The notes below the pieces were generated by a model, which did not search any database, was not told where the DNA came from, and was given only the letters and a program-made list of their open reading frames with translations. DNA of 64,000 nucleotides. Source: an uncultured Pelagibacteraceae bacterium. Its GTDB lineage: Bacteria; Pseudomonadota; Alphaproteobacteria; Pelagibacterales; Pelagibacteraceae. Shown here one piece after another: positions 3,903 to 21,185 of this stretch (within the stretch, counting starts at the first letter, position 1; the number at the start of each line of letters is the position of its first letter). The DNA lies in contig CABZHY010000001.1 of assembly GCA_902525565.1 (NCBI GenBank), forward strand, positions 62,001 through 126,000, in the 5' to 3' direction. The position numbers and the translations under genes are program-made.

Positions 3903-3916
3903 GTTGACATGTTAAC
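3903..3916. promoter_or_regulatory. Palindromic operator, copy 1 (GTTGACATGTTAAC)
   Basis: Upstream member of a tandem pair before the second tctCBA operon. One mismatched pair separates it from perfect symmetry. It is identical in its 14-bp core to the copy starting 26 bp downstream. The same element occurs at 9923, 12089, 15519 and 21172, always intergenic. It is the likely binding site of a dimeric helix-turn-helix regulator; the protein is not identified. Confidence 0.7.
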
Positions 3917-3928
3917 TAATTATTTTTT

Positions 3929-3942
3929 GTTGACATGTTAAC
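3929..3942. promoter_or_regulatory. Palindromic operator, copy 2, overlapping a -35 box
   Basis: Second GTTGACATGTTAAC, 26 bp from the first (about two and a half helical turns). TTGACA at 3930-3935 matches the -35 consensus exactly, and TATAGG at 3951-3956 is a possible -10 with a short 15-bp spacer. A protein on this site would block RNA polymerase. The start of the second tctC lies about 45 bp downstream. Confidence 0.72.
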
Positions 3943-3985
3943 TACTAATTTATAGGCTTTGTTAATAATTTTAGGAAGGGAATTT

Positions 3986-4945
3986 ATGAATAATATAAAA
4001 AAAATACTTATAACTATATCAATATTTCTATTGAGTTTTGGTCAAGTTGCTAATGCAGGATGGGAACCCTCTCAAGAGGTTGAAATAGTTGCGCATGCGA
4101 AAGAAACTTCTTCAACTGTTGCGTTTGCTAGAGCAGTTATCAAGGTAATCGAGGAAGAAAATTTATTACCTAATGGGGTAAAATTAACCATTATAAGAGG
4201 TGCAAGAGGTGGAAAAGCTAGAAATTATGTTTTAAATAAAAACAAAGATCCACACGTAATGCAGGTTCTAACTCCATCGCAGATTAACAATGTTATCTTG
4301 ACTGGACAAGAAGTTGGATACCAAAATGCTAAAGGTATTTCTGCACTTGTAGTTTCACCTTTGCTTTTAACAGTTAATGCAGACTCAGAATACAAATCAT
4401 TAAAAGATATAATAAAAAAGGCAAAAGCAAATCCTGGTAAAGTTGTTCAAGGTGGAGGTGACTTTGGTCAAGTCGCATCTTTGGTGGGAAAAATGATGGC
4501 TGACGAAAAGGGAGTAGACATAACTTATACTCCTTTTGATGATGAAGGTGTTTTACAATTACTTGGTGGTCATATAGATTTTATTCTAGAAAACCCAGGC
4601 CAAGTATTTAAATTTGTAAAAGCAGGTAAAATGAGAATTCTTGCTTCATCAGTGAAGCTACCTTCAATGCCTGAAGTGCCTACTTTTAAACAAGCTGGAT
4701 ACAAAGGCACAATACTTGCTCAATATAGAGGCTTATGGTTTTCAAACGAAAACTCAAATGCTCAAGCTAATTTCTATAGCAAACTTATGAAGAAAGTTGC
4801 CAAAACGCAATCTTTCCAAGATTATGTTGCAAAAAACAACTTAGCCTCAATTTCAATTCATCAGTCTAAGTTGGATAAAATGTTAGCTGAAGAGCATGCT
4901 GCTTATTTCAAATTAAGTACTGAATTAAATTTAATTAAGAAATAA
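3986..4945 (+). CDS. TctC-family substrate-binding protein (second TTT system)
   Basis: Periplasmic binding subunit of the second tripartite transporter. I chose ATG 3986 rather than an in-frame TTG at 3959, because AGGAAGGG lies just upstream and the protein then opens with a normal signal peptide (residues 1-24, ending 'VANA'). The mature part starts 'GWEPSQEVEIVAHAKE'. It lacks the common 'PxxPGGxxD' loop, having 'HAKETSSTVAF' instead, so it is a divergent member that probably recognises a different ligand from the other two. Two copies of the shared operator precede it, and a 16-bp hairpin follows before tctB. Confidence 0.87.
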   Translation: MNNIKKILITISIFLLSFGQVANAGWEPSQEVEIVAHAKETSSTVAFARAVIKVIEEENLLPNGVKLTIIRGARGGKARNYVLNKNKDPHVMQVLTPSQINNVILTGQEVGYQNAKGISALVVSPLLLTVNADSEYKSLKDIIKKAKANPGKVVQGGGDFGQVASLVGKMMADEKGVDITYTPFDDEGVLQLLGGHIDFILENPGQVFKFVKAGKMRILASSVKLPSMPEVPTFKQAGYKGTILAQYRGLWFSNENSNAQANFYSKLMKKVAKTQSFQDYVAKNNLASISIHQSKLDKMLAEEHAAYFKLSTELNLIKK

Positions 4946-4954
4946 AAAATTATA

Positions 4955-4989
4955 ATATTACCGTAACTTTTAAAAAGTTACGGTAATAT
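4955..4989 (+). terminator. Long hairpin between tctC and tctB (second system)
   Basis: A 16-bp perfect stem (arms 4955-4970 and 4974-4989) closes on a 3-nt TAA loop and contains TTACCGTAAC / GTTACGGTAA. It falls between the binding-protein stop and the tctB start. No U tract follows beyond the stem, so mRNA stabilisation or processing seems likelier than full termination. This is one of four such hairpins in the window, each directly after a binding-protein gene. Confidence 0.65.
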
Positions 4990-4993
4990 ATTT

Positions 4994-5518
4994 ATGAAGT
5001 TTTTTTACAAATTATTTCTCTCAAAACAGAATTTATTAGCAACAATTTTTTTAATCACACTAATTTTATATTTTATTTCATCTTTTGATTTAGAAAAAAC
5101 TATTGGAGAGGATGTCGTTGGACCTTCAAGTTTTCCAATTCTTGTTGCAACTTTTGGATTTCTTTTATTAATAATATATTTTTTAAAGAGCTTGAAGACT
5201 TTTAATGAAAACAATCCTTTAACTTTTGAGGTTATCAAAAATAAATTTACAAAAATGGCTCCAATTTTTATAACAATAATTTTTGTAGTCTTGTTTGAGT
5301 TAATTGGTTTTATTTTCTCAAGTTTTCTTTACTCTTTCTTATTTATTTTATATTTAAAAAAAACAATAAAATATTCATTTGTTTTTAGTGTAGTTATAAC
5401 TTTGAGTATTTTTATAATTTTTTACTATGGATTAAATTTTCAAATGCCTATGGGTGAGTTAGTTGATACCGATAAACTTTTTCCTTTTTTAGAAGATTTA
5501 AAGAAAATGATTTACTAA
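4994..5518 (+). CDS. TctB-family small membrane subunit (second TTT system)
   Basis: Small membrane subunit of 174 residues with four hydrophobic helices (about residues 13-31, 45-64, 88-112 and 117-147). After the first helix comes 'GPSSFPILVA', the position where TctB proteins have a conserved 'GP..FP' turn. It lies between a tctC and a tctA; its stop directly abuts the tctA ATG. Sequence likeness to the other two TctB proteins here is low, as usual for this subunit, so the call leans on context. Confidence 0.85.
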   Translation: MKFFYKLFLSKQNLLATIFLITLILYFISSFDLEKTIGEDVVGPSSFPILVATFGFLLLIIYFLKSLKTFNENNPLTFEVIKNKFTKMAPIFITIIFVVLFELIGFIFSSFLYSFLFILYLKKTIKYSFVFSVVITLSIFIIFYYGLNFQMPMGELVDTDKLFPFLEDLKKMIY

Positions 5519-7018
5519 ATGTTTGATACAATATTTATAAATTTGATAGATGGTTTTAAAATCATTTTACAAGTTAAATATTTAATGTATGCATTATTTG
5601 GTTCTTTATTAGGCACTGTAGTTGGAGTTTTACCAGGTATTGGTTCTGCTGGCGCATTAGCAATGATGCTTCCAATAATATTGGTTCTTGATCCTTTAGG
5701 ATCTGTATTTATGTTAGCAGCAACTTATACAGGTGTTATGTATGGGGGTTCAACAGCATCTATTCTATTAAGAGTGCCAGGTGATACTTCAGCAGTAATT
5801 GCCTGTTTAGATGGCCATGAAATGGCAAAACAAGGTAATGCTGGAGCTGCATTATGTATAGCGGCAATCGGATCTTATATTGCTGGCACTATAGCGGTTG
5901 TTGGTTTAATGATTTTAGGACCGTTTGTTGCTGACTTAGCCCTAAAATTTAGTGCACCTGAGTATTTAGCTCTTTACATCTTTGCAGTTACCGCAGTGTG
6001 CAGTTTAGTTGGAAATTCAATGGTTAAGGCTCTTTTAGCAATGGTATTTGGTTTAATGATATCGACTATTGGTGAAGATTTTATGGGAGTAAAAAGATTT
6101 ACTTTAGGTATTACTGAACTTTGGGACGGTATTCAATTTCTATCAGTTACCTTAGGCCTTTTTGCTATTTCAGAAGTTATAATAAATTCTGAAAATATTT
6201 TATCAAATCAAAAAAGAGAAGTATTAAAACATAGGGTATTTATTAAATTAAAAGAGATAATATATAGCTTCTGGTCTATAATTAGAGGAGGTTTCATAGG
6301 TTTTGTAATAGGAGTACTTCCAGGTGCAGGAGCTGGAATAGCATCTTTTGTTTCCTATTCAACTGAAAGACAAATAAGTAAAAATCCAGAAAATTTCGGA
6401 AAGGGTGAGATAAAAGGAGTTGCTGGTCCAGAGTCTGCAAATAATGCCGCGAGCGCAGGAGCATTCGTACCTATGTTAGCTTTAGGGGTGCCTGGTTCAG
6501 CTACAACTGCTGTAATGTTAGGAGCATTCCTTATGTTAGATATTCAAGCTGGGCCAATGTTATTTATTGAAAGGCCGGATGTAGTTTGGGGACTTGTGGC
6601 AGCACTTTATGTTGGAAATATTTTTTTATTAATATTGAACCTTCCTCTCATAAGTTTATTTGTAAGAATTTTATATATCCCTATGGCTATATTACTGCCA
6701 ATAATAACAATAATTTGTATGTTAGGGATTTATTCTAGCGATCAACTTACATTAAGTTTGTATTTGATGTGTTTATTTGGGATAATTGGTTATTTTATGA
6801 GATCGTGCGATTACCCCTTAGCTCCAGTAATTTTAGGTGTGGTTCTTGGAACTAGGATGGAGGAGTCTTTTAGACAGACGATGATTATGAATCAAGGTAA
6901 TTTTTTTCAAATTTTTGATAGACCAATTGTTTTAATTTTCTTTGGTTTGGCGATAGTTTCTATATTAATACCTTTGATGTTTAATAAAATTAAATTAGAT
7001 GCATCAGATGTTGATTAA
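5519..7018 (+). CDS. TctA-family large permease subunit (second TTT system)
   Basis: Polytopic permease of 499 residues with the doubled TctA signature: 'GVLPGIGSAGALAMM' near residue 38 and 'GVLPGAGAGIASFVS' near residue 263. 'YGGSTASILLRVPGD' and 'LGVPGSATTAVMLG' follow. It starts immediately after the tctB stop. Its own stop directly abuts, tail to tail, the stop of the opposite-strand hydroxyacid dehydrogenase gene, leaving no room for a separate terminator. Partner of the TctC at 3986; substrate unknown. Confidence 0.93.
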   Translation: MFDTIFINLIDGFKIILQVKYLMYALFGSLLGTVVGVLPGIGSAGALAMMLPIILVLDPLGSVFMLAATYTGVMYGGSTASILLRVPGDTSAVIACLDGHEMAKQGNAGAALCIAAIGSYIAGTIAVVGLMILGPFVADLALKFSAPEYLALYIFAVTAVCSLVGNSMVKALLAMVFGLMISTIGEDFMGVKRFTLGITELWDGIQFLSVTLGLFAISEVIINSENILSNQKREVLKHRVFIKLKEIIYSFWSIIRGGFIGFVIGVLPGAGAGIASFVSYSTERQISKNPENFGKGEIKGVAGPESANNAASAGAFVPMLALGVPGSATTAVMLGAFLMLDIQAGPMLFIERPDVVWGLVAALYVGNIFLLILNLPLISLFVRILYIPMAILLPIITIICMLGIYSSDQLTLSLYLMCLFGIIGYFMRSCDYPLAPVILGVVLGTRMEESFRQTMIMNQGNFFQIFDRPIVLIFFGLAIVSILIPLMFNKIKLDASDVD

Positions 7019-7975
7019 TTAGGAGTAAATTTCTTTATTAATTAATCTAGATTGGTCAATATTTCCTTTAAAAAAATTTTCGATATTAATTGCGCAATGT
7101 AATGACATTTCTGAAAGACATTCTTCAGTGTAAGCAGCTGAGTGGGGTGTAAGAATTGTATTTTTTAATTTTAATAATTCATTTTTTGATTGAGGAGGCT
7201 CAGGATTAAATACGTCTAATCCTACATAAAAATTTTTGTTTTCTTTCAAATGAAGGATTAAATCATTTTCGTTGATTAAATCGCCTCGAGAAGTATTAAT
7301 TATAGCACAATCAGATTTTAATTTATTTAAAAAAGTTTTGTCAATGAGAGCTTTTTCAGAATTATTAAATGGTATATGTAAACTAATAAAATCATAAATA
7401 TTTAAGTTTTCATTAATATTATTAACAATCTTAGTATTTTTAGATAAGTTTTCTAATTTCAAAAATTTATCATATACAAAAACATTCATATTAAAAAAAT
7501 TGCAAATATCAGCTACTTTTTTTCCTATTCTCCCATATCCAAAAATTAAAATATTTTTTTTATTAAGGTCTCTACTACTAAAAGAATTTCTTATCTCAAA
7601 ATTATTGGACCTTACTTCGGAATCGTAAAAGTTAATTTTTTTAGCAATATTTATAATCAAACCAAATGTATGTTCAGCTACTGAGGTTGAGTTGACATCC
7701 CCAACAATAAAAAGAGGTATTTTTTTTTTATTTATTACATCAAGGTTAACATTATTATAACCAACCCCATGTCTAGAAATTATTTTAAGATTTTTAGATA
7801 AATTAATAAATTCCTCATCTACTTTTGTCATTTTTAAAATCAAAGCGTCGTAAAGATTTAAATTTTTTTTATAATCATCATTTTGATCACTAGCTTCGTC
7901 AACCTGATAAGAAATCTTTTTTAAATATTTAATGCCTGCTGTATGAATTTTACCTAAAACTAAAACTTTCTTCAT
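7019..7975 (-). CDS. D-isomer-specific 2-hydroxyacid dehydrogenase (SerA-like)
   Basis: NAD-dependent oxidoreductase that interconverts a D-2-hydroxy acid and a 2-oxo acid in the cytoplasm. Rossmann motif GYGRIG is at residues 146-151; the catalytic triad is Arg230 ('NTSRGDL'), Glu259 ('NPEPP') and His278 ('TPHSA'). At 318 residues it lacks the C-terminal regulatory ACT domain of biosynthetic SerA, so a catabolic role is more likely than serine synthesis. I start it at ATG 7975, which forms an ATGA overlap with the upstream gene's stop; an ATG five codons earlier (7990) is possible. Last gene of the operon that begins with the TauD-type dioxygenase. Confidence 0.88.
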   Translation of the reverse strand: MKKVLVLGKIHTAGIKYLKKISYQVDEASDQNDDYKKNLNLYDALILKMTKVDEEFINLSKNLKIISRHGVGYNNVNLDVINKKKIPLFIVGDVNSTSVAEHTFGLIINIAKKINFYDSEVRSNNFEIRNSFSSRDLNKKNILIFGYGRIGKKVADICNFFNMNVFVYDKFLKLENLSKNTKIVNNINENLNIYDFISLHIPFNNSEKALIDKTFLNKLKSDCAIINTSRGDLINENDLILHLKENKNFYVGLDVFNPEPPQSKNELLKLKNTILTPHSAAYTEECLSEMSLHCAINIENFFKGNIDQSRLINKEIYS

Positions 7976-8847
7976 ATATTGCTTGACCACATCTTGTAAA
8001 GTTTTAACTGATCTGAATTTTTTCCTAGTTTATTTTTTGATTTTTTTAATAATTTTAAAATATTTGATGATATTGGCGCCCTTCTAACATATTTTTTAAT
8101 TAAATTATTTGCAATCGATACATCTTTAGTAAGTAAATTAAGTGTAAATCCAGAATTGTATTTTTTAATTAATATTCCATCTTTAATTTTTTTAAAATAA
8201 GGATGATTTTTACCTGTAGTTGCTTGATCGATAGCATTAATTAAATAGTTTTTTTTTATTCCAAATTTTAAAGCTGTAGTTATTGCCTCTAGGTAGGTAT
8301 TTAGAACTGAGGCATTAATGAAGTTATTTAGTGCTTTAAGTGAATGTCCGCTACCTAGTTTGCCACACCAAATTATCTTTCCAAAACAGTTTAATAATCT
8401 AATAATTTCATTATTTTTCTTTGTTCCGCCAAAAAACAGAGTTAGTTCACCAGTTTTTGCAAATTTCACACCTCCAGCAACGGGACAATCATAAAATTTT
8501 ATTTTTTTATGTTTTAATTTTTTTCCTATATTAAGAGTTTCTGTTGGTATTGACGTGCTCATATCAATAATAATTGTGTTTTTTTTTAATTTTTGGAAAA
8601 TTTTATTCTTTTTAAAAATAATCTCATTTACTTCCTTGCTAGATGGCACCATTAAAATTACACAATCTACTTTTTCTATAGATTCTAAAAAATTAATTTC
8701 TTCAATTTTAGTATTATTGTAAAAACTTTTTAAATTATTTTTGTTAATATCATGCGGAAAAATAGTGTATTTGTTTTTAACTAAACGACTAGCCATATAA
8801 TAGCCCATATTACCCAAACCTATGAAAGCAATATTTTTTATTTTCAT
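7972..8847 (-). CDS. 3-hydroxyisobutyrate dehydrogenase-family oxidoreductase
   Basis: NAD(P)-dependent beta-hydroxyacid dehydrogenase of 291 residues. It has the dinucleotide motif GLGNMG (10-15), the substrate-loop block 'CPVAGGVKFAKTG' (from residue 121) and the catalytic Lys171 in 'SLKALNN'. The family includes 3-hydroxyisobutyrate dehydrogenase, tartronate semialdehyde reductase and sulfolactaldehyde reductase, which cannot be separated by eye. It sits 9 nt downstream of the dioxygenase gene and overlaps the following hydroxyacid dehydrogenase by 4 nt. The three probably act successively on one imported compound. Confidence 0.87.
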   Translation of the reverse strand: MKIKNIAFIGLGNMGYYMASRLVKNKYTIFPHDINKNNLKSFYNNTKIEEINFLESIEKVDCVILMVPSSKEVNEIIFKKNKIFQKLKKNTIIIDMSTSIPTETLNIGKKLKHKKIKFYDCPVAGGVKFAKTGELTLFFGGTKKNNEIIRLLNCFGKIIWCGKLGSGHSLKALNNFINASVLNTYLEAITTALKFGIKKNYLINAIDQATTGKNHPYFKKIKDGILIKKYNSGFTLNLLTKDVSIANNLIKKYVRRAPISSNILKLLKKSKNKLGKNSDQLKLYKMWSSNI

Positions 8848-8856
8848 TAAATTTTG

Positions 8857-9900
8857 TTAATTTGCTTCAAGAGGAATATTTAAATCTAAACCTTCTGCGT
8901 ATACTCCACCTCTTTCACCAATTTTAATACTTCCCCATCTATCTATGTATTTTTCTGATAATTCTCTATCTTCATAAGCTGATATCCATAATCTTAAAAG
9001 GTGTCTTTTCTTACTCTTATCTTCATAATCTTCATACGACATTCTATCATGAAATAAAGTATGGTTGTAAATTACTTGTATATCTCCAGGCTCAAACATC
9101 ATTTTCATGTATAGACTCTCATCGTTTGCATATTTATCAATTATATCTAAAGCCTCTCTTTGTTTATCAGAAATTGTTACACCTTCAAATCTTGTAGAAC
9201 TTTCTAAATATTGTCTTAAAAAATATGAGGATATCTTCCCATTCTTTTCATAGTAAACAGGTGTCATCGAATAACCTTTTTGATTGCCACCTTCTTCACC
9301 TCTTCTATCAAGAGGAAACGGCTCAAATAGAATTGGAAGATATTCTGGATTGTTTTCTAAAATTTTATTAAAAATTGTCATTGAGCTTACTAACAAGGAC
9401 TCACCACCTTTTTTTGCTTTATTTAAACACAGCAATGAAACTATATCGCTTCTGTCACTATGAAAAGTTTGTCTATATGTTGTTTCATATACTCTTGCAG
9501 TAAAATCTTTTGTTGTATCTTTGCCCAAGTCTTTAACATGTCCAAGTAAATGACCTTTTTTATTTTGAACTCTAAAATTGCCAAAATATGAGCATAATCC
9601 CATATATGCAGTTATTATTTTTTCTCTGCTCCATTCATTTACCGGCATCCCCCTAATTAAGGCAAAACCTCTGCCATTTTTTAATTCATCATCAATTTTT
9701 CTAAGGTACTTTTTTCCCAAATTTTCGAAATAAAAATCATCTTTATTTAATTTGGTGAGTTTTTTTTTGGAGGATATAAACTTTACAGTAAGATTTTCAA
9801 TTTCATTAATATCTTCTTTATCTAACCTATATATCCAGTCAGTTTTTTTTTCCTCTTCAGGACCATACCAAGCACTTTTATCTGTAATTTTGGAAAACAT
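8857..9900 (-). CDS. TauD/TfdA-family Fe(II)/2-oxoglutarate dioxygenase
   Basis: Oxygenase that would hydroxylate a small substrate using Fe(II), oxygen and 2-oxoglutarate, often releasing a sulfonate, amine or other leaving group. The facial triad is visible as His147-x-Asp149 ('FHSDR') and His284 ('LFHDR'); Arg299 or Arg303 is the likely 2-oxoglutarate anchor. At 347 residues it is longer than taurine dioxygenase (about 280), with an extra N-terminal 60-70 residues, as in clavaminate-synthase-like relatives. First gene of a three-gene operon; a copy of the shared operator lies 23 bp upstream. Substrate unknown: a taurine role should not be assumed from the family name. Confidence 0.82.
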   Translation of the reverse strand: MFSKITDKSAWYGPEEEKKTDWIYRLDKEDINEIENLTVKFISSKKKLTKLNKDDFYFENLGKKYLRKIDDELKNGRGFALIRGMPVNEWSREKIITAYMGLCSYFGNFRVQNKKGHLLGHVKDLGKDTTKDFTARVYETTYRQTFHSDRSDIVSLLCLNKAKKGGESLLVSSMTIFNKILENNPEYLPILFEPFPLDRRGEEGGNQKGYSMTPVYYEKNGKISSYFLRQYLESSTRFEGVTISDKQREALDIIDKYANDESLYMKMMFEPGDIQVIYNHTLFHDRMSYEDYEDKSKKRHLLRLWISAYEDRELSEKYIDRWGSIKIGERGGVYAEGLDLNIPLEAN

Positions 9901-9922: not shown

Positions 9923-9936
9923 GTTGATAAATCAAC
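9923..9936. promoter_or_regulatory. Palindromic operator (GTTGATAAATCAAC)
   Basis: Arms GTTGAT/ATCAAC are perfectly symmetric, and symmetry extends to TAGTTGAT...ATCAACTA at 9921-9938. It lies in the 42-bp gap between the dioxygenase start and the stop of the next minus-strand gene. On the minus strand TTGATT within it could serve as a -35 box. Central bases differ from the other copies, which have C/G beside the spacer. Confidence 0.6.
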
Positions 9937-9942
9937 TAAAAT

Positions 9943-11586
9943 TTATACTAATCCACTTGCAAATGAATTTCTTCTCACATCATAGCAATTCAAATAATTG
10001 CCAGATGAATTTTTTACAATACCTTCAACACCACCAACTATATCTGTCCATTCATCAAAAAATTTAATATTGATATTTTTATTTTTTAATATTGCATTTA
10101 ACCTTTCGTATCGATTTTCTAAATATACATCCTCAAAATTATTTGAGATTTTAAATCTTGGTAAATCAATAGCTGTTTGTAAATCAATTTTATAATTTAA
10201 AACGTGTGAAAGCACTTGAAAAAGGTACTGAATTATCCCAAATCCACCAGGACTTCCAAGAGTTAAATAAGGCTCATTATTTTTAAAAACAATTACAGGA
10301 GCATGACCTATATTACATCTTTTATTTGGTATTATTATATTCGGAGAATTTTTTAATGCCATCCACCAAGTTCTATCATTCATAAATAAACCTGTGTTAT
10401 CAGCAATTTCTCCGCAACCAAATTGATATCCTATTGATTGTGTTGCAGAAACAATGTTATTATTTTTATCCCAAACGCAAAAGTGTGTTGTTCCACCATC
10501 TTTTAGATTTAATTTAGTTTTTTTAATATTATTTAAAGATTTTCTTGCAATTGATTTTAAATATTTTCTACTTATCAATTCAGATTGACTAAATTTTATA
10601 AAATCAGGATCTGAACTATATTTTCTTCTGTCTCTTAATACTTTCTGTAAAATAGAAATTAGAATTTCTATATACTTATCTGACATAAATTTTATATTTT
10701 TCAAATTATAATTTTTTAATAAATTAAAGCATTGTAGTAAATTAATGCCACTTGTAGGCATTCCTGTAGTAACTAATTTAGAATTTTTGTAATCAGTTGA
10801 AAAAGGTTCTCTCTCTATTATTTTATAATTTTTAAAATCACTTTTAGAGAAAAAAGGATTTTTATTTTTACAATATTTTAATATTTCTTGTATTGTTTTG
10901 CCGTTTCTAAACTCTTTAGATTTATTTTTTGAAAATCTGTAAAGTGTTTTAGACAAATCTTTTTGAATAAAAGTTTCACCAGGTCTTATTTTTTTATTAT
11001 TTTTTAATATTTTATTTGTTGATTTAAATTTTGATAATTTTTTATGATAAGCATCGAATGCCTGAAAAAGATAATTGCTTATAGGAAATCCTTTTTTTGC
11101 TAAATTTATTGAAGGTTTAATAAGTTTTTCAAATTTTAAAGACCCATATTTTTGCCACGCATAATCTAACAAAAAGGGTGTCCCTGGTATCATAGAGGTT
11201 ATTATCCCCTCATTTCTAGTATTAAATGGTTCTTCTCTATCGATGAATGATTTATTTTTTAATTTAAGAATTTTTTTCAATTTATCGCTATCAATTTTAT
11301 TTGGACATACAGAATAACCATCAATGTGAGATGTTTTGTTTTTTTTATTATTATAATAAAGCCAAACACTATCACCTGCTAGACCTGACCAATTAGGACT
11401 AGTTACAGCTAATGTTGAAGCAATTGAAATTGATGCATCAATTGCATTTCCACCTTTATTTAAAATATCAATACCTATCGCTGTTGAAATAGGATCCATC
11501 GTACTTACTCCACCCTTAGATCCCCAAATTTCATGCGAAGGTCTATTGTTAAGAAATTTATTTCTGATTTTAGTATCTATTTTCAA
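9943..11586 (-). CDS. Gamma-glutamyltransferase-family (Ntn-hydrolase) amidohydrolase
   Basis: Member of the GGT family of self-cleaving N-terminal nucleophile hydrolases, which split gamma-glutamyl or related amide bonds. The nucleophile and cleavage site is Thr366 in 'GGTTHFCVWD'; 'GSPGGFG' (from residue 444) is the oxyanion/Gly-Gly block, and the start has the usual 'ILNKGGNAIDA'. The segment normally reading 'NNxMDDFS' is altered ('FMNDRTWWMA'), so true glutathione hydrolysis is doubtful. It has no signal peptide, unlike periplasmic GGT, so it is probably cytoplasmic. The start is TTG 11586, two bases after the cupin stop; the next in-frame ATG (residue 30) would cut into the conserved N-terminus. 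Confidence 0.85.
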   Translation of the reverse strand: MKIDTKIRNKFLNNRPSHEIWGSKGGVSTMDPISTAIGIDILNKGGNAIDASISIASTLAVTSPNWSGLAGDSVWLYYNNKKNKTSHIDGYSVCPNKIDSDKLKKILKLKNKSFIDREEPFNTRNEGIITSMIPGTPFLLDYAWQKYGSLKFEKLIKPSINLAKKGFPISNYLFQAFDAYHKKLSKFKSTNKILKNNKKIRPGETFIQKDLSKTLYRFSKNKSKEFRNGKTIQEILKYCKNKNPFFSKSDFKNYKIIEREPFSTDYKNSKLVTTGMPTSGINLLQCFNLLKNYNLKNIKFMSDKYIEILISILQKVLRDRRKYSSDPDFIKFSQSELISRKYLKSIARKSLNNIKKTKLNLKDGGTTHFCVWDKNNNIVSATQSIGYQFGCGEIADNTGLFMNDRTWWMALKNSPNIIIPNKRCNIGHAPVIVFKNNEPYLTLGSPGGFGIIQYLFQVLSHVLNYKIDLQTAIDLPRFKISNNFEDVYLENRYERLNAILKNKNINIKFFDEWTDIVGGVEGIVKNSSGNYLNCYDVRRNSFASGLV

Positions 11587-11588
11587 GT

Positions 11589-13497: not shown

Positions 13498-14585
13498 AAT
13501 TGTCAAAAAAAATTCCAACTTCAATTATAACCGGTTTTTTAGGTAGTGGTAAGACGACTATTCTAAACGATATAATAAATTATAAAGAATTTAAAAATAC
13601 TTTATTAATCATAAATGAATTTGGCAAAATAAGCATTGATCATCATTTAATAAAAAAAAAAAGTGATGATAAAATTGTGCTAAATAATGGATGTTTATGC
13701 TGCTCATTTTCAGGAGACTTAGTAAAGACTTTAGATGACACTTTAAAACTTAAGAAAAAATTTGATAGAATTATAATTGAAACTAGTGGATTAGCTGATC
13801 CAATACCTATTGTTCAGACTATAGTATCAGATCAAATAATCTCTGAAAAAATAAAATTTAAATCATTAATTACAGTTGTTGATACTGTGAATTTTCAAAA
13901 CGATTTACATAATCATTTAGAAAATTTTAAACAAATTACTTCAGCAGATATAATTTTTCTAAGTAAAACAGATATTAGTGAAAATAATAAAAAAAAAGAA
14001 GTCATTAAAGAATTAAAAAAATTAAATCTACACGCAGAAATTTTAGATAAAAACTTGCTTAAATTGCATGAAATTAAAAAAATATTTACAGATTTTAATA
14101 TTAAAAAGTTAACAATCCAAAAAATAGATAATACCTTAAAAACTAAATCGAATTTTTTACATAAAAAAAACTTTGTCAATGAAACAAAAAAAGTTAAGTC
14201 AATATCTATTAACATAAAACATAATATAACTAAAGATGGACTTAAATTATGGCTTAACGCGTTGGCGAGGTTTAAAAGCAACAACCTTTTAAGAATGAAA
14301 GGTATTATTAAAGTAGAAAAAAAAGTTCTCTTAATTAATGCTGTACAAAAAGTATTTCACGAACCAATCAAATTAGACAAGTGGCCATTTGATGACAAGC
14401 AGTCAAAAATTGTATTTATTACTAAAAATTTAGATAATGTAGATTTAAAAAAAACTATAAATGTTCTTAATTTTAAAAAAGAGAGAAAAAACAAAATAAA
14501 TAAACTTTCTTTTTCACAAAAAGATTATTCAAATTTTGTAAATGCAATGTCAAAATTTGATGCCCTTACCACACTAGATCGTTAA
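13479..14585 (+). CDS. CobW/G3E-family P-loop GTPase (putative metallochaperone)
   Basis: GTP-driven metal insertase of the COG0523 family. Walker A GFLGSGKT is at residues 19-26, the family metal-binding Cys-x-Cys-Cys at residues 72-75 ('GCLCC'), then 'ETSGLADP' and 'SKTD' as GTPase motifs. The C-terminal CobW domain is present ('LDKWPFDD'). The ATG at 13479 overlaps the amidohydrolase end by 19 nt; a TTG at 13500, just after that stop, is an alternative and neither has a well-placed ribosome site. The overlap with a binuclear-metal hydrolase suggests it metallates that enzyme. Its stop interlocks with that of the opposite-strand TauE gene in TTAA. Confidence 0.86.
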   Translation: MESDGLKLSKKIPTSIITGFLGSGKTTILNDIINYKEFKNTLLIINEFGKISIDHHLIKKKSDDKIVLNNGCLCCSFSGDLVKTLDDTLKLKKKFDRIIIETSGLADPIPIVQTIVSDQIISEKIKFKSLITVVDTVNFQNDLHNHLENFKQITSADIIFLSKTDISENNKKKEVIKELKKLNLHAEILDKNLLKLHEIKKIFTDFNIKKLTIQKIDNTLKTKSNFLHKKNFVNETKKVKSISINIKHNITKDGLKLWLNALARFKSNNLLRMKGIIKVEKKVLLINAVQKVFHEPIKLDKWPFDDKQSKIVFITKNLDNVDLKKTINVLNFKKERKNKINKLSFSQKDYSNFVNAMSKFDALTTLDR

Positions 14586-15403
14586 TTAGAAAAATTATAA
14601 ATTTCGTAAAAGGCTCTCAGAGAAATGATAATTAAAGTAATTCCATATATTTTATTCAACATTTCCTTTTTAATTTTAGATGTGGTGATCGCACCTATTC
14701 TTGCCATTAACAAAGTTGCTGGAACAAAAATTAAGAAACTTAATATATTTATGTAGCCTACGGTATATGGTTCGTCAACTTTTGCAATGTAATGCCCACT
14801 TATTAACATTGATAAAAAGCCGGTAAAAGAAATTATAATTCCAAAATGAGCAGATGTGCCGATGGCAATTTTTATCGAGTAATTATAAAATCTCATTATA
14901 GGAACCATAATCGATGCTCCTCCTATCCCTAGTGGCACTGACATAAATCCTGTAATTAAACTATAAATTATTTTGTATGGATTTGAAATCTCATTTTTAA
15001 ATTTGTTTAATTTATCTTTTTTAAATAAAAGAAACACACCAGAAATAAATGTGTAGCTAGCAAATATAAAAAGTAAATTTAATGTATTCACATTTGAAGT
15101 GAAAAATGTACCAAGAATAATACCCAAAAAAATAAATACTCCACAGAACTTAAAAAAATTTTTATCTAAATTTCCATTTTTATAATGAGTATAAGAAGAT
15201 ATAATTGATGTTGGAAAAATAATTGCTAATGAAGTACCAACCGCAATATGCATTAATAAGTCACTGCTATATCCATATAATTTAAGAGCAAAAAAAAGTG
15301 CCGGCACTGTTATCATGCCTCCCCCAGCACCTAATAATCCAGCAAAAAATCCAGAAAGGCATCCAAATAAAATCAAAATAAAAATTATATTTAAATCAAA
15401 CAT
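14582..15403 (-). CDS. TauE/SafE-family membrane permease (first copy)
   Basis: Integral membrane protein of 273 residues with about eight helices and the duplicated TauE/SafE pattern: 'GGGMITVPALF' near residue 26 and 'GIGGASIMVPIMRFY' near residue 158. Members export sulfite, sulfoacetate or other small anions, but many have unknown substrates. It is divergent from the third tctCBA operon, with the shared operator between them. Its stop overlaps that of the CobW gene by 4 nt, tail to tail. Confidence 0.85.
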   Translation of the reverse strand: MFDLNIIFILILFGCLSGFFAGLLGAGGGMITVPALFFALKLYGYSSDLLMHIAVGTSLAIIFPTSIISSYTHYKNGNLDKNFFKFCGVFIFLGIILGTFFTSNVNTLNLLFIFASYTFISGVFLLFKKDKLNKFKNEISNPYKIIYSLITGFMSVPLGIGGASIMVPIMRFYNYSIKIAIGTSAHFGIIISFTGFLSMLISGHYIAKVDEPYTVGYINILSFLIFVPATLLMARIGAITTSKIKKEMLNKIYGITLIIISLRAFYEIYNFSN

Positions 15404-15470
15404 AAAATGAACTTTATCTTAAATTTAAAGTTTTAATGAATTTATTTTTATATATGATTAGTTTTATCCC

Positions 15471-15485
15471 TGACACAGAGTGTCA
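15471..15485. promoter_or_regulatory. Second type of palindrome, TGACAC-aga-GTGTCA
   Basis: A perfect 6-bp inverted repeat with a 3-nt centre lies in the TauE/tctC divergent gap, 33 bp left of the shared operator. It is unlike the GTTRAY motif and is not followed by a U tract on either strand, so it is a candidate site for another regulator. Only one copy was noticed. Confidence 0.35.
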
Positions 15486-15518
15486 TTTAATATTGGTAAA
15501 TTTGAAAACTTTATCTTA

Positions 15519-15532
15519 GTTGACAAGTCAAC
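15519..15532. promoter_or_regulatory. Perfect palindromic operator on the third tctC promoter (GTTGACAAGTCAAC)
   Basis: The only copy with perfect GTTGAC/GTCAAC arms. TTGACA at 15520-15525 followed after 17 bp by TTTAAT (15543-15548) makes a near-consensus promoter for tctC, so the operator covers the -35 box exactly. It also lies upstream of the divergent TauE gene. This copy gives the clearest evidence for repression by occlusion. Confidence 0.75.
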
Positions 15533-15584
15533 GCAACATATATTTAATTTATTAATATAAATATTGAACAAAGGAGGGGTAATT

Positions 15585-16562
15585 ATGATTAAATTATTTA
15601 TTAAAAAAATAATTTTAATTTTATCTGCAGTCTCTTTTTTGATATCTTCAGCAATCGCTGCTGATTTCCCTAAAGGTCCTGTAGAATTAGTTGTTCCATG
15701 GAAAGCTGGAGGCGGAACAGATAGAAGTGCAAGAATATTTGCACCTTTTTTAGCAGAGGAGCTTGGTGTACCTGTAAATGTTGTGAACATTTCAGGTGGT
15801 GGAGGCTGGGTTGCTTGGGGGCAAATGGCTAAATGGGATCCAAAAAAAGATGATCATAAAATTGGATTAGTTAATTTACCACATGTATTTGCTTACTTGG
15901 ATCCTAAAATGAAAAGAACCGAAACTGTTGGAAATTTTAATTTTATTGGAGGCCAAACTTACGATCCTTGTCTATGGTTAGTAAGAGCTGACGATGAAAG
16001 ATTCACTGGTGGTTTAAAGGATGTATTAGCTTATACTGAAAAAAATCCTAATAAACTTATTGTAAGTACAACTGCTATAGGTTCAGATGACTATCAAGGT
16101 TTGGCTTTTGCTGAGAAGAAACTTAAAGGTTTTAAAGTAGCAAAAGTTTATGCAAATAATGATGCTAAAAAAATCCAAGAACTATTAGCTGGAACAAGTG
16201 ATATGGTTGCAGGAAATGTTTCTTTTTATGTAAATTACATTAGAGAAGGTAAAATGAGACCAGTTGCTGTTCTTGATACTGTAAGATCGGAGTATTTACC
16301 TTCAGTTCCTACGTTTGGAGAGGTGACTGGTGTTGAGAATCTTGGTTTTGCAGCAAGAACTTTAATAGCAGCCAATGGTTTACCACAGGATAAATACGAT
16401 GTGTTCAAAAATGCTATTAATAAAGCACAAGCTAACCCTGGTTATCAATTAGCTGAAATGTCTAAATCAAGTAGAATTTGGACTGCAGCAGGAGGTGACT
16501 TGAAAGACTTTATAGCTAACACAGAAAAAATGGTAAAAGTTGTTGAATATTGGAATCAATAA
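15585..16562 (+). CDS. TctC-family substrate-binding protein (third TTT system)
   Basis: Periplasmic binding subunit of 325 residues. ATG 15585 was chosen over ATG 15564 because AGGAGGGG at 15572-15579 is ideally placed for it, and the protein then begins with a clean signal peptide (1-25, ending 'AIA'). The mature start 'DFPKGPVELVVPWKAGGGTD' is the canonical TctC ligand loop, making this the most typical of the three binding proteins. The shared operator overlaps its promoter. A 12-bp hairpin follows the gene, before tctB. Confidence 0.92.
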   Translation: MIKLFIKKIILILSAVSFLISSAIAADFPKGPVELVVPWKAGGGTDRSARIFAPFLAEELGVPVNVVNISGGGGWVAWGQMAKWDPKKDDHKIGLVNLPHVFAYLDPKMKRTETVGNFNFIGGQTYDPCLWLVRADDERFTGGLKDVLAYTEKNPNKLIVSTTAIGSDDYQGLAFAEKKLKGFKVAKVYANNDAKKIQELLAGTSDMVAGNVSFYVNYIREGKMRPVAVLDTVRSEYLPSVPTFGEVTGVENLGFAARTLIAANGLPQDKYDVFKNAINKAQANPGYQLAEMSKSSRIWTAAGGDLKDFIANTEKMVKVVEYWNQ

Positions 16563-16578
16563 ACTTTAATTTCAAATT

Positions 16579-16609
16579 AAGAGGCTGACAATTAATATGT
16601 CGGCCTCTT
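16579..16609 (+). terminator. Hairpin between tctC and tctB (third system)
   Basis: A 12-bp stem (AAGAGGCTGACA at 16579-16590, TGTCGGCCTCTT at 16598-16609) with one U-G pair and a 7-nt loop, followed by TCTTTATATTT. It is terminator-like with an interrupted U tract. It lies directly after the binding-protein gene and 12 bases before tctB, like the hairpins at 1021, 4955 and 29713. Confidence 0.7.
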
Positions 16610-16621
16610 TCTTTATATTTG

Positions 16622-17041
16622 ATGATAAATATCCATTTAGTAAGAAATATTTTTATTTTTTTTATTTCATTAGCTGTAATTTTTATTTCAACAGAATATG
16701 CTAATTATGCAAATTTACTTCCAACTTTTTGTGCAATTTCAATCATTATATTTACTATATTAGATTATTTTCAAAATAAAGAAAATTATAAATTAAAAAA
16801 GAGTATTAATATAAATTTTAGGCCTTATATAATTTTAATAATTTCTTTCTTTTATGTTTTATCAATTTTAGTTTTAGGTTTTTTTGTTTCAACAATAATA
16901 TTTTTTATTTTATCAAGTTATTATTTAGGAGTAAAAAATTTTAAACATATTTTTTTAACGTTAATTATACTCATTCCATTCATGTATATTTTTTTCAGTC
17001 TTTTTCTAAAGACTAATTTGCCAAAGGGGTTTTTGATTTAA
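16622..17041 (+). CDS. TctB-family small membrane subunit (third TTT system)
   Basis: Membrane protein of 139 residues with four hydrophobic segments (about residues 6-22, 29-44, 66-100 in two passes, and 107-128). It lies between tctC and tctA, which identifies it; sequence conservation is low. I start at ATG 16622, although a TTG immediately before it (16619) is in frame. No Shine-Dalgarno is visible. Its stop shares one base with the tctA start (TAATG). Confidence 0.8.
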   Translation: MINIHLVRNIFIFFISLAVIFISTEYANYANLLPTFCAISIIIFTILDYFQNKENYKLKKSININFRPYIILIISFFYVLSILVLGFFVSTIIFFILSSYYLGVKNFKHIFLTLIILIPFMYIFFSLFLKTNLPKGFLI

Positions 17042-18549
17042 TGTATATTTTTGAAGCTTTAAGTTATTTTGGCAACCTGTTCACAGTGAGTGTTTTATTT
17101 TGTCTTATTTTGGGGGTTTTAATTGGATTAGTAATTGGTGCTATACCTGGTTTAAGTCCTCCAATGGCGATTGCTCTTTTAATACCTGTTTCTTTTAATT
17201 TTCCACCAACTGAAGCTCTAATTCTCATGGTATCTTGTTATGCTGCTGGTATGTATGGAGGATCTTTTTCAGCAATCTTAATAAGAGCACCTGGCACATC
17301 TGCATCTGCCGCAACAGCTATTGAGGGTTTTGAATTAACAAAAAAAGGAAATGCAATTCAGGCTATAAGAATCTCAACTTTTGCAAGTGTCTTAGGTGGG
17401 TTAATTAGTGGTTTGGTTTTACTTTTGTTAGCACCTCCTTTAGCTGAAGTAGCTCTATTATTTGGTCCTGCAGAATATTTTTTAATGGCAATTTTAGGTT
17501 TAACTGCAATAGCATCAATATCTTTTGGACATATTTTTAAAGGTTTAATTTCAGGTTTTTTTGGAATTTTTTTGTCGACAGTTGGTATTGATCTTTACTC
17601 TGGAATACCAAGATTTTCATTTGGTTCAGCTACTTTATCATCAGGCATAGGCATTATGCCAGCTATAGTTGGATTATTCGCTTTTGCACAAGGTTTGGAA
17701 TTATCATTATCAAAAGCACAAGACACAATTGGTGGTAATTCTAAACTTAGCTGGAATATTTGGCCAAAATTTAATGAAATAAAAAAAGTTAAAAATTCAT
17801 TATTTAGAGGTTGGGGGTGTGGTTTAGTTTTAGGAATAATACCAGCTGCAGGTGGTAGCATTGCTCAATGGATTGCTTATGCATGGGAAATTCAAAAAAG
17901 TAAAATAGGCGATCAATTCGGTAAAGGTGAAATAAAAGGATTAGCAGCCACAGAGGGATCTAATAATGGATCAACTGGCACCTCCTTAATACCGATGTTT
18001 ACACTTGGAATTCCAGGAGGTATTTCTGCAGCAGTTATTCTTGGAGCACTTGTTATTCATGGTTTGCAGCCTGGTCTTAGTTTATTTAAAAATAATCCAC
18101 AAATTGTTTACACAGTAATGTGGGGTTTTTTAGCTGCAAATATATTAATGGGTTTTATTGCAGCTATAATGGCTAGAGGTATGGCTCACTTAACAATTAT
18201 GCCAAAAGGTCTATTGGCACCTTTAATAATTATTTTTTCGATAGTTGGAACATATGTAAATACAAATAATATTGCTGATGTATGGATAATGATGGTTTTT
18301 GGAGTTTTAGGTTATTTGATGACTAAATATCATTTTTCTACAGGTGCAGCTTTGTTAGGCTTAATATTAGGTCCTATAGCAGAGAATGGTTTAAGGGACT
18401 TAATGGTTGTATCAAGAGGGGATCCAATTCTTTATACCTTACAAAGACCTTTGTCTATTAGTCTACTTATATTGACCTGTATAATCGTTTTTTATTCTGC
18501 AAAGCAATTTAAATGGGAAAAGAAAAATAAAAAAATTATAAACAAGTGA
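17041..18549 (+). CDS. TctA-family large permease subunit (third TTT system)
   Basis: Permease of 502 residues with both TctA repeats: 'GAIPGLSPPMAIALLIP' near residue 33 and 'GIIPAAGGSIAQWIAY' near residue 263, plus 'YGGSFSAILIRAPGTSASA' and 'LGIPGGISAAVILG'. The second repeat has PAA in place of PGA. It overlaps tctB by one base and the following flavin oxidoreductase by 4 nt (GTGA), so transporter and two enzymes appear translationally coupled. Confidence 0.93.
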   Translation: MYIFEALSYFGNLFTVSVLFCLILGVLIGLVIGAIPGLSPPMAIALLIPVSFNFPPTEALILMVSCYAAGMYGGSFSAILIRAPGTSASAATAIEGFELTKKGNAIQAIRISTFASVLGGLISGLVLLLLAPPLAEVALLFGPAEYFLMAILGLTAIASISFGHIFKGLISGFFGIFLSTVGIDLYSGIPRFSFGSATLSSGIGIMPAIVGLFAFAQGLELSLSKAQDTIGGNSKLSWNIWPKFNEIKKVKNSLFRGWGCGLVLGIIPAAGGSIAQWIAYAWEIQKSKIGDQFGKGEIKGLAATEGSNNGSTGTSLIPMFTLGIPGGISAAVILGALVIHGLQPGLSLFKNNPQIVYTVMWGFLAANILMGFIAAIMARGMAHLTIMPKGLLAPLIIIFSIVGTYVNTNNIADVWIMMVFGVLGYLMTKYHFSTGAALLGLILGPIAENGLRDLMVVSRGDPILYTLQRPLSISLLILTCIIVFYSAKQFKWEKKNKKIINK

Positions 18550-19619
18550 AAGAAAAGATCTTTAAAAAAATTAAAATTAATGGAGTTACACTTAAAAATA
18601 GATTTGTAGTTTCACCAATGTGTCAATATTCGTCTTCTAATGGTAGTCCGGTTAGTTGGCATTATAAACATTTAACAAGTCTTGGAAATTCTGGAGCAGG
18701 ATTGTTAATGATTGAAGCAACAGCCGTTGAAAAAAGAGGGAAGATCACTCATTCAGATATGTGTTTAGAAAATAATACTCAATATAAAAAATTAAAAAAA
18801 CTAGTTAAAAATATAAAAAAAAACTCAGATATTAAAATTGGATTACAAATATCGCATTCTGGTAGAAAAGGCTCAACCGAATTACCTTGGATTAAACCCA
18901 ATTCAACTCTGAAAAAGAAATCTTGGAAAACAATATCATCCTCATCAATTAAAAGGGAACTTGATTGGCCTCATCCAAAAGAGATGAATGATAACGACAT
19001 AAAAAATGTAAAACAGAAATTTATAAACTCCACAAGACTTGCAAAAAAATTGGATATACATTGTTTGGAATTACATATGGCCCATGGATATTTGTTACAT
19101 CAATTTTTTTCTCCAATTTCAAATAAAAGACAAGATAAATATGGCGGTAATTTAAAAAATAGATGCAGATTTTTATTAGAAGTAGCTCGATTAGTAAGAA
19201 AAAATTGGCCCAATAATAAAATCTTAGGCGCAAGAATTACAGGGAAAGATTGGATTAAAAATGGAATAAATTTAGAAGATTCCATTTATTTAAGTAAAGA
19301 ATTAAAAATAATTGGTTTTGATTATGTATGTGTTTCAAGCGGTGGATTAATTTCAAAAACCGATTTTAAACCAAGACCAAATTTTAATTTTAATTTAGCA
19401 AGATCTATAAGAAAAAACTGTAAGATAAAAGTAAGAGTTGGAGGTATGATTGATGACATAAATTTTGCAAAAAAAATAATAAATAATAATGATGTAGATT
19501 TAATTTCTAATGCAAGAAAATATATTTATGAACCAAACTTTATTTTAAAAGAATTATCTAAACTGAACCCTAAAAATAAAATTGTTCCAAATCAGTACAG
19601 AAGATGTTACAAAATATAA
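18546..19619 (+). CDS. Old Yellow Enzyme-family NADH:flavin oxidoreductase
   Basis: FMN-dependent TIM-barrel ene-reductase of 357 residues. It carries the family blocks 'SPMCQYSS' (substrate loop with the YqjM-type Cys), 'QISHSGRKG' (His pair for substrate anchoring), 'HMAHGYLLHQFFSP' and 'NKRQDKYGG', and the FMN phosphate site 'VRVGGM'. It most resembles the YqjM/XenA subclass that reduces activated C=C bonds. It starts with GTG inside the tctA stop (GTGA overlap) and is followed after 3 nt by an SDR. This suggests that an unsaturated acid or lactone is imported by the third TTT and then reduced. Confidence 0.87.
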   Translation: MKEKIFKKIKINGVTLKNRFVVSPMCQYSSSNGSPVSWHYKHLTSLGNSGAGLLMIEATAVEKRGKITHSDMCLENNTQYKKLKKLVKNIKKNSDIKIGLQISHSGRKGSTELPWIKPNSTLKKKSWKTISSSSIKRELDWPHPKEMNDNDIKNVKQKFINSTRLAKKLDIHCLELHMAHGYLLHQFFSPISNKRQDKYGGNLKNRCRFLLEVARLVRKNWPNNKILGARITGKDWIKNGINLEDSIYLSKELKIIGFDYVCVSSGGLISKTDFKPRPNFNFNLARSIRKNCKIKVRVGGMIDDINFAKKIINNNDVDLISNARKYIYEPNFILKELSKLNPKNKIVPNQYRRCYKI

Positions 19620-19622
19620 ATA

Positions 19623-20333
19623 ATGAAAACAGTGTTAATTACAGGTGCTAATAGAGGAATTGGACTTGCTACAAGCAAACTATTAAGACAAAAAAAATAT
19701 AATATTATTGGAGTTGCAAGATCTAAAGTTAAAAACTTTCCAGGTAAATTTTTTGAATGCGACTTATCAAATTCAAATGAGATTGAGCTATTGATAAAAA
19801 AATTAAAAAAACTTGATGTTACTTGTATTGTAAATAATGCTGGTGCATCATTTGGGCAATCTATTGAAAATTTAGATTTAAAAACATTCGATAAATCAAT
19901 TAAATTAAATTTAAGACCAGCTATTCAATTATCACTTGGCTTAGTAAATAATATGAAAAAAAGAAAATTTGGTAGAATTGTAAACGTTGCAAGTAGAGCA
20001 GCTTTAGGAAGAGAGCTAAGAACAAGTTATTCTTCAGCAAAAGCTGGTCTATATGGTTTTGCTAGAACTTGGGCTTTGGAGCTTGCAAAATACAACATTA
20101 CAATTAATACAGTTTCGCCAGGACCAATTTTAACAGAATTACAAATTAAAAATAATAGTCAAAATAAAACCTATCAAAAAAAATATATGGCTCAAAATCC
20201 TATGAGAAGATTTGGTAAACCTGAAGAAGTAGCAAGTGCAATTTCTTTTTTTGTTTCAGATGAAGCTTCTTTCATAACAGGTCAAACTTTATATGTTTGT
20301 GGAGGAATGAGTGTCGGTCATGCTCCTATCTAA
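19623..20333 (+). CDS. Short-chain dehydrogenase/reductase
   Basis: Classical SDR of 236 residues acting on a hydroxyl or keto group with NAD(P). Cofactor motif 'TGANRGIG' is at residues 7-14, then 'NNAG', and the active site Tyr-x3-Lys is in 'SYSSAKAG' with an upstream Ser in 'VASRAA'. The C-terminus 'SFITGQTLYVCGG' is normal. It is last in the tctCBA-OYE-SDR operon; its stop interlocks with the stop of the convergent TauE-type gene (CTAA). Confidence 0.88.
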   Translation: MKTVLITGANRGIGLATSKLLRQKKYNIIGVARSKVKNFPGKFFECDLSNSNEIELLIKKLKKLDVTCIVNNAGASFGQSIENLDLKTFDKSIKLNLRPAIQLSLGLVNNMKKRKFGRIVNVASRAALGRELRTSYSSAKAGLYGFARTWALELAKYNITINTVSPGPILTELQIKNNSQNKTYQKKYMAQNPMRRFGKPEEVASAISFFVSDEASFITGQTLYVCGGMSVGHAPI

Positions 20334-21109
20334 TCTAAAGTTAAAGCTCTAATAATCATTATAATACTCCCTGACAACATGAAAAACTCAATCAAAGTTT
20401 GATGCACTTTTTTTCCAATTTTATCGACTATTTTTTTTCCAATATATGTACCCAATAAACACATGATTCCTAAAAAACTACCTATTGTAAAAATTTCCAT
20501 ATCAATCACACCAAGCTTATAAAAATGAATTGATCTAACAATTATTGTAATTAAATCAGCAACAGAGCTTGAACCAACTAAATTAGAACCAACCAAACCA
20601 TTTGCAGATAATCCTGTCAGAATCATTAAACCTGGTCCCAAAATAACCCCTAAGGATAAACCTGTAAAAATTGCATAAAGCGCTAATAATTTATTATTTA
20701 AATAAATATTTAAATTAAGAAAAAATTTTCTTAAAACTACCAATGCAAAAATAGAAAAACCGACAATCAATGTTAGAGTTTTTGTTGAGGCAACTGAAAA
20801 AAAATAAGTACTAAAATATAAGCCAGGTGCTGCAAAAATTGAAAAGTAAATAGATTTTTTCCAATTAATGTGTTCCCAATATAAAATTATTCTCCAAAAA
20901 TTTATATAAAAAGTAAGAATTGTTACTATTGGGACAATTTTTTTTACACCAACCATGGGCATCAAAACAACACCAATTAGTATACCAGCACCATATCCCG
21001 ACATTCCAGCCACGATTGACCCTATTAATGTTAAAGCTATAATTAAAATCAATCCAACAGTGTCAAAAGATGCTATAAACGAACCTAGTATAGTTATTAT
21101 TTCATGCAT
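20330..21109 (-). CDS. TauE/SafE-family membrane permease (second copy)
   Basis: Integral membrane protein of 259 residues with about eight helices and the repeated glycine-rich TauE pattern ('GMSGYGAGILIGVVLMP' near residue 33; 'GLSANGLVGSNLVGSSSVADL' region near residue 168). It is only distantly similar to the copy at 14582-15403. The substrate is probably a small anion and is not determinable here. It is divergent from the GlcD-type flavoprotein operon with an operator copy between them, so it probably belongs to the same regulon. Confidence 0.82.
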   Translation of the reverse strand: MHEIITILGSFIASFDTVGLILIIALTLIGSIVAGMSGYGAGILIGVVLMPMVGVKKIVPIVTILTFYINFWRIILYWEHINWKKSIYFSIFAAPGLYFSTYFFSVASTKTLTLIVGFSIFALVVLRKFFLNLNIYLNNKLLALYAIFTGLSLGVILGPGLMILTGLSANGLVGSNLVGSSSVADLITIIVRSIHFYKLGVIDMEIFTIGSFLGIMCLLGTYIGKKIVDKIGKKVHQTLIEFFMLSGSIIMIIRALTLD

Positions 21110-21171
21110 AAAATAAAAGATGCTGTTATTTTACAGTTAATTTAATTAAATAATGAAATCAATTAAATATT

Positions 21172-21185
21172 GTTAACTAGTCAAC
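21172..21185. promoter_or_regulatory. Palindromic operator (GTTAACTAGTCAAC)
   Basis: Copy of the shared motif in the 106-bp divergent gap between the second TauE-type gene and the GlcD-type flavoprotein operon. TTGTTA (21170-21175) and TATAAA (21192-21197) with a 16-bp spacer form a possible rightward promoter, so the operator would cover the -35 side. One pair deviates from symmetry. Confidence 0.65.

Follow-up and report, generated by a model that had tools for sequence, protein, structure and literature searches.

A 14-bp palindrome recurs in the promoter gaps of a gene block for uptake and breakdown in a SAR11 bacterium, and we propose, with a probability of roughly 0.82, that a MarR-family protein encoded nearby, at C1:56935–57438, binds these palindromes as operators. 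The DNA analysed (the window) is 64,000 nucleotides long and corresponds to C1:62001–126000 of an uncultured Pelagibacteraceae genome (G000; 1,014,547 bases in 53 contigs, 71% complete); coordinates given without a contig are those of the window. Computational comparison finds the sites clustered in this block, conserved in relatives and associated with the same MarR subfamily in different gene neighbourhoods.

Palindromic sites in the promoter gaps of one block

There are six copies of the pattern GTTRAYNNRTYAAC in the window, against an expectation of 0.10, and none of 100 shuffled sequences reached six. All copies are where an earlier note on this DNA had placed them. Two stand in tandem upstream of the second tctCBA operon (plus strand), the distal one at 3903–3916 (GTTGACATGTTAAC) and the proximal one at 3929–3942 (with TTGACA, and TAGGCT 17 bp on); the pair, 3903–3942, is a 26-bp duplication. 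One copy lies upstream of the TauD-HIBDH-PGDH operon (9923–9936, minus strand; GTTGATAAATCAAC), and the remaining three, to which we assign no strand, lie in divergent gaps, between cupin-GGT and amidohydrolase-CobW (12089–12102; GTTGACTAGTTAAC), between TauE1 and tctCBA-3 (15519–15532; GTTGACAAGTCAAC) and between TauE2 and GlcD-HpaI-DAO (21172–21185; GTTAACTAGTCAAC). The earlier note had assigned the same three copies to divergent gaps; its statement that all six are intergenic holds if a 108-residue antisense open reading frame (15464–15790) is spurious, as we take it to be. In the whole G000 genome the pattern has eight matches, the six above and two more. One of these, at C1:61974 (window coordinate −26, L001:15974), falls in the gap between an HbpS-like gene and tctC-1, again a divergent one, and is counted as the seventh site; lying just outside the window, it escaped the earlier note. 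The other, at C8:1076 (GTTAATATATTAAC), lies within an open reading frame and is taken as a chance match. The seven sites span 21.2 kb.

A symmetrised 22-bp matrix was built from the seven sites and run over 804,438 bases. The sites scored 21.4–27.2 bits, and the best other match, in an open reading frame, scored 17.2 bits. Since the full matrix was derived from the sites themselves, each site was also removed in turn, along with its tandem twin; the resulting matrices regained every site at 18.4–26.4 bits, with no non-site scoring as high (best non-site 16.5–17.8 bits), the margin being only about 1 bit for the sites at 9923, 15519 and 21172. The earlier note had suggested a scan of the full genome and held that its proposal of a single regulon would fall if many copies of the same quality turned up in coding sequence unrelated to it; no such copies were found. 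The shuffles, the whole-genome count and the leave-one-out matrices rule out a chance origin of the sites. Allowing one mismatch raises the count in the window to ten, the six exact matches included, versus 3.68 expected, and those beyond the six are at chance level; they number four (44750, 55387, 56969 and 63120), not the single near-match that had been reported for the core half. Genome-wide, the 12-bp core shows no enrichment (12 copies versus 15 of reversed controls in G000, and 7 versus 18 in G355, a genome described below): what is special about it is its location, not its frequency.

By Pfam assignment, the sites front nine units with 24 genes in an uptake and breakdown block of about 25 kb, a unit being a set of co-directed genes as grouped by us. 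From −26 to 24726 every non-convergent gap between units has a site, and there is none in the gap at 28454–28599 or in that of the MarR gene. The operons listed as fronted in the earlier note are indeed fronted; the first tctCBA-cupin operon, which it omitted, also has a site.

Conservation in relatives that carry the block

Among the genomes compared, the closest one with a name comes from a Pelagibacteraceae (SAR11) single cell, AG-899-N21 (G246; G041, with identical coordinates, is the same genome), whose contig C7 aligns to window positions −15972 to 35460 in pieces 75–88% identical. The palindrome is retained in all five gaps that the two genomes have in common, with 69 of 70 site bases identical versus 306 of 506 aligned flank bases (Fisher p 4e-13, for columns that are not independent). 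In AG-899-N21 the tandem pair is reduced to one copy in the tctCBA-2 gap, and the site in the TauE2/GlcD gap is spelled GTTAACTAATCAAC. This genome lacks the tctCBA-3-OYE cassette (15520–19575) and likewise lacks its site; window positions 23395–24721, the DAO gene, have no counterpart there either.

A second relative, G218 (89% complete), has a site in the cupin/amidohydrolase gap (L090:1263), the same as that at 12089, and one in the TauE2/GlcD gap (L091) with one base changed. These two gaps came to light by way of the pattern or the amidohydrolase, and the search in G218 was confined to them. Across 397 genomes of the order, GTTRACNNGTYAAC is absent from 348, and three or more copies are found only in G000 (6) and AG-899-N21 (3). 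Of 11 matches fetched from 11 other genomes of the order, 10 are inside open reading frames and one is intergenic, and they look like chance matches; both G218 matches are intergenic. Several of the chance matches (L092, L094–L096, L100, L101 and L106) lie in open reading frames of about 690–701 residues, perhaps one conserved gene.

That one operator serves the whole block, in line with the single regulator suggested in the earlier note, is well supported by the leave-one-out recovery, the five AG-899-N21 gaps, the joint absence of cassette and site and the two G218 gaps. It is scarcely credible that the copies derive from a mobile element or represent a structural repeat. The island does vary between relatives and one copy belongs to the 26-bp tandem duplication, as such an origin would have it; but the positions follow promoter gaps, the flanks differ between copies, and both the conservation in AG-899-N21 and the leave-one-out recovery disfavour it.

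The MarR-family gene and its predicted fold

The earlier note named no regulator. The candidate is encoded on the minus strand at window coordinates −5065 to −4562 (L001:10935–11438), 4.6 kb beyond the left edge of the window. In a Pfam scan of 60 proteins from about C1:34000 to 103500, a set that covers part of the open reading frames and includes three proteins without a family, it is the sole transcription regulator recognised. It matches HTH_27 at 38.9 bits (cut-off 22.2) and MarR (PF01047) at 23.9 bits, just below the cut-off of 24.6; a relative in G355 exceeds that cut-off with 30.8 bits, and the ortholog in G824 has only a sub-cut-off SarA/Rot match (26.0 of 27 bits). The winged helix-turn-helix profile thus places the protein in MarR at the superfamily level. 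HpaR and BilQ are among its best NCBIfam matches, at 38.1 of 121.2 and 53.6 of 125 bits, far under the curated cut-offs, so it is a member of neither equivalog.

The AlphaFold model of the AG-899-N21 protein, which is 81–83% identical to that of G000, has a mean pLDDT (predicted local distance difference test score) of 76.9 and is predicted to have a long N-terminal helix, a helix-turn-helix, a beta wing and two C-terminal helices, the MarR topology. The 50 Foldseek matches listed for this model are MarR-type by name and include the DNA-bound structures 8zde, 5h3r, 3gfi and 4lln. Two of these, MepR and E. coli MarR with operator DNA (4lln and 5h3r), match at E values of 2e-6 to 5e-7 and 20–23% identity; both are drug-resistance regulators, and their ligand and regulon are not comparable with those of the SAR11 protein. 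D-x-R is the wing signature of the MarR family, and its D103 and R105 are invariant across an alignment of 14 relatives.

The site itself resembles known MarR-type operators. Its core is TTRAC-NN-GTYAA, with 5-base arms and a 2-base centre. CosR is a regulator linked with the control of compatible solutes. In Vibrio parahaemolyticus the consensus for this MarR-type protein, TTTGA-NN-TCTAA, has the same 5+2+5 geometry with a similar half-site, and SlyA, a winged helix-turn-helix protein of the MarR family, has an operator, TTAGCAAGCTAA, that also combines 5-base arms with a 2-base centre (operators as given in PMC8070244). The SlyA half-site is TTAGC versus TTRAC here, and the E. coli protein counters H-NS silencing, whereas the present sites front a local catabolic block.

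A GntR regulator was considered as well and rejected for G000, where none is encoded in the 71% of the genome available; AG-899-N21 has one on contig C2. Just past the MarR gene, L001:8498–10869 (C1:54498–56869) encodes a small SxtJ-family protein and then a carbamoyltransferase, with no operator there.

MarR genes and sites across genomes

MarR proteins of at least 80% identity occur in the same two of the 397 order genomes, G000 and AG-899-N21, that have three or more sites. Taken alone this coincidence is weak, as the two genomes have one island in common and are not independent. A search for MarR in 385 genomes of the class (E 1e-12) returned G000 only, so no wider family was usable. Three contrasts, provided by G082, by G824 and G917, and by G355, tie MarR to the sites.

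The first contrast is a similar block with neither regulator nor sites. G082 (97% complete) has 19 of 27 tested island proteins at 60–97% identity on one contig, in rearranged order (L114–L117, C6:22834–53014): HbpS, MocA, tctC/B/A-1, cupin-1, tctC/A-2, PGDH, HIBDH, TauD, GGT, cupin-2, the amidohydrolase, CobW, TauE1, SDR, TauE2 and GlcD. No MarR was detected in it by a protein search (E 1e-20) or a DNA search; the 80-kb contig stretch lacks any site within one mismatch of the pattern, and the genome has no exact site. The earlier note had counted on conservation of the sites upstream of orthologous operons, which holds in AG-899-N21 and G218 and fails in G082; as G082 also lacks MarR, its operons without sites fit a regulon.

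The second contrast is the converse, a related MarR in another neighbourhood. Orthologs of 56–57% identity were found in three of 364 other genomes drawn from the genus (G824, G917 and G871). In G824 and G917, none of 26 other island proteins is present in the 44.1 and 43.1 kb read around the gene. In both, an SBP/ABC operon that ends next to MarR is preceded by tandem GTTGACTTGTCTAC-like sites, the order being SBP_bac_1, an ABC ATPase, a gene for a 456-residue protein and then MarR on the opposite strand; the sites of both genomes are two direct copies, 20 bp apart, of AATAGTTGACTTGTCTAC, altered at one base per copy in G917, in the divergent gap upstream of the SBP_bac_1 gene. By eye, the 456-residue protein resembles the Lyase_1 protein of G871.

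The third contrast comes from G355, where a 37% relative is accompanied by TTTGACATGTCAAA, a perfect 14-bp palindrome, over the chosen start codon. In this region (L105:4340–12517) the relative is flanked by an altronate-dehydratase/2-hydroxyacid dehydrogenase operon and by tctC-tctA-tctB plus an MR_MLE enzyme. Altogether, eight loci have MarR or a relative of at least 37% identity; at five of them a matching or similar site lies no more than 5 kb away, and at the other three the DNA read shows none. Of 42 control loci around other MarR relatives (714,097 bases), none contains the relaxed core TTGACNNGTCWA/TWGACNNGTCAA. A shorter palindrome, GTTAATTAAC, beside an ABC-type operon in G180 and G056 was not counted as a site.

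We tentatively suggest, at somewhat less than even odds, that in SAR11 MarR and its operator constitute a portable layer of control, with operators gained or lost in concert across the promoter gaps of the island. The suggestion comes from the presence of a similar block with the layer (G000 and AG-899-N21) and without it (G082), and from a MarR subfamily that apparently controls an ABC-transport locus in G824 and G917.

Promoter reading and mode of control

When an arm of the palindrome is read as a −35 element, a −10-like hexamer follows 15–17 bp on in 7 of 11 site/unit pairs: TAnnnT for tct-1, proximal tct-2, TauD, cupin-GGT, the amidohydrolase and GlcD, and TTTAAT at 17 bp for tct-3. It is suggestive only that the sites may overlap −35 elements of the units. 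The earlier note's layout of both TauE genes behind a site is correct; their control is uncertain, the evidence for it being the divergent arrangement, as the side facing them showed no −10-like element.

Such spacing would also be expected if the motif were mere common −35 architecture (TTGACA) with no dedicated regulator, the arm being TTGACA, TTAACA or similar with TAnnnT or TTTAAT 15–17 bp downstream in those same pairs. We consider this very improbable: promoters do not need a second, inverted arm, both arms are conserved, and all genomes of the order have promoters, yet 348 of the 397 lack GTTRACNNGTYAAC and only two have more than two copies.

A dedicated MarR would most likely act as a repressor, as follows. 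A dimer would sit on GTTRACNNGTYAAC with one recognition helix per half-site. As an arm can be read as −35 in the 7 of 11 pairs, bound MarR would block RNA polymerase there and keep the promoters shut. A pathway metabolite, as the ligand, would then release MarR, and the transporters and catabolic enzymes would be switched on. It is rather unlikely, though compatible with operator binding by MarR, that the same protein acts as an activator, or as activator and repressor both. Where MarR-type sites coincide with −35 or −10 elements, stimulation has been proposed as well (PA3458 discussion in PMC8070244). A site on the −35 element or the spacer itself would, however, more naturally exclude RNA polymerase, and the −35-like arms, TTRACA/T, already come close to the consensus.

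Several observations weigh against MarR acting through these sites. Of the 11 pairs examined, those of HbpS, TauE1, TauE2 and the distal tct-2 site showed no −10-like element, and the −10 readings were made without a chance control and without promoter rules established here for SAR11. MarR genes are commonly, if not universally, autoregulated through a site in their own promoter; in G000 no site with at most two mismatches lies near the MarR gene, and its gap is poorly conserved in AG-899-N21, so that autoregulation is not apparent. G082 retains a two-mismatch remnant, TATAACAAGTTAAC, in its tct-1/amidohydrolase gap and one relaxed-core copy inside tctC2 on the block contig. The G824 and G917 sites are imperfect palindromes, with one change in each of the two copies in G917, and the relaxed core was defined after G824 had been inspected; a wider core, TTRACNNGTYAA, occurs in 2 of the 42 control loci. 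In G871 MarR stands beside another transporter with no site in the 11.7-kb contig, and the 39–42% relatives in G180 and G056 have none in 15 kb each. G218, finally, has sites at two orthologous gaps and no detected MarR; it matches the 7-kb MarR region over 39 bases only. Its block contigs are 3.1 and 14.9 kb, so that the MarR gene is perhaps missing from fragmentary sequence, or perhaps the reading is wrong.

Part of this would be explained if the sites bound another factor, whose gene lies in the 29% of the genome that is missing or among unscanned genes, with MarR as a bystander on the island. G000 is 71% complete and GntR is the only other regulator searched for genome-wide, and both the sites of G218 without MarR and the MarR gene without a site of its own would suit such a factor. 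We judge it unlikely nonetheless, given the MarR orthologs and relatives that stand beside similar sites in the other gene neighbourhoods of G824, G917 and G355, the joint absence of MarR and sites in G082 and the MarR-like geometry of the sites.

Substrate and significance

TctC-type receptors suggest carboxylates, and some carboxylate may be the substrate of the block, whose genes may together handle one substrate family. In a PDB sequence search, TctC-1 and TctC-2 matched terephthalate-binding and other Bug-type receptors, the TauD protein matched FrbJ and a predicted hydroxylase, and the amidohydrolase matched Xaa-Pro dipeptidase or arginine carboxypeptidase; for the DAO protein the search gave nothing at E 1e-15. 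These matches disagree on any one compound, and the presence of TauD, two TauE proteins, GGT, a dipeptidase-like amidohydrolase and several dehydrogenases does not narrow it further.

Local regulons under MarR control are a known kind of system. The literal operator spellings had no match in the literature, and no title or abstract opening listed for SAR11 described such a regulon; within the scope of these searches, the operator, the regulator subfamily and the SAR11 block were not found. SAR11 bacteria are among the most abundant marine cells and are noted for their few regulators. If the proposal is true, some SAR11 lineages would turn entire uptake programmes on and off through one dedicated repressor of 24 clustered genes, which include three tricarboxylate-type transporters. 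The operator would also serve as a handle, since the compound that induces MarR would indicate what the block takes as its substrate, and any SAR11 genome can be scanned with the matrix.

Units of the block and neighbouring genes

From left to right, the nine units, assigned by Pfam, are as follows. The first operon, tctC-tctB-tctA and a double cupin, with its site at −26, occupies 31–3857 (plus strand), and the second, tctC-tctB-tctA, 3986–7018 (plus; ATG start chosen by eye). The operon for a TauD-family oxygenase with HIBADH-like and 2-hydroxyacid dehydrogenases (Pfam and NCBIfam) lies at 7019–9900 (minus) and the cupin–gamma-glutamyltranspeptidase operon at 9943–12032 (minus). They are followed by the operon for the amidohydrolase (Xaa-Pro dipeptidase-like by the PDB sequence search) and a CobW GTPase at 12175–14585 (plus), by TauE-family exporter 1 at 14582–15403 (minus; regulation uncertain), by the third operon, tctC-tctB-tctA-OYE-SDR, at 15585–20333 (plus; ATG start chosen by eye) and by TauE-family exporter 2 at 20330–21109 (minus; regulation uncertain). 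The last unit, 21216–24726 (plus), encodes a GlcD-like FAD dehydrogenase, an HpaI-like aldolase and a DAO oxidase. Next to the block, 24723–31707 holds an accessory neighbour set without operator, an M23 peptidase-SDR-TerC-GMC oxidoreductase group and then a TRAP transporter operon.

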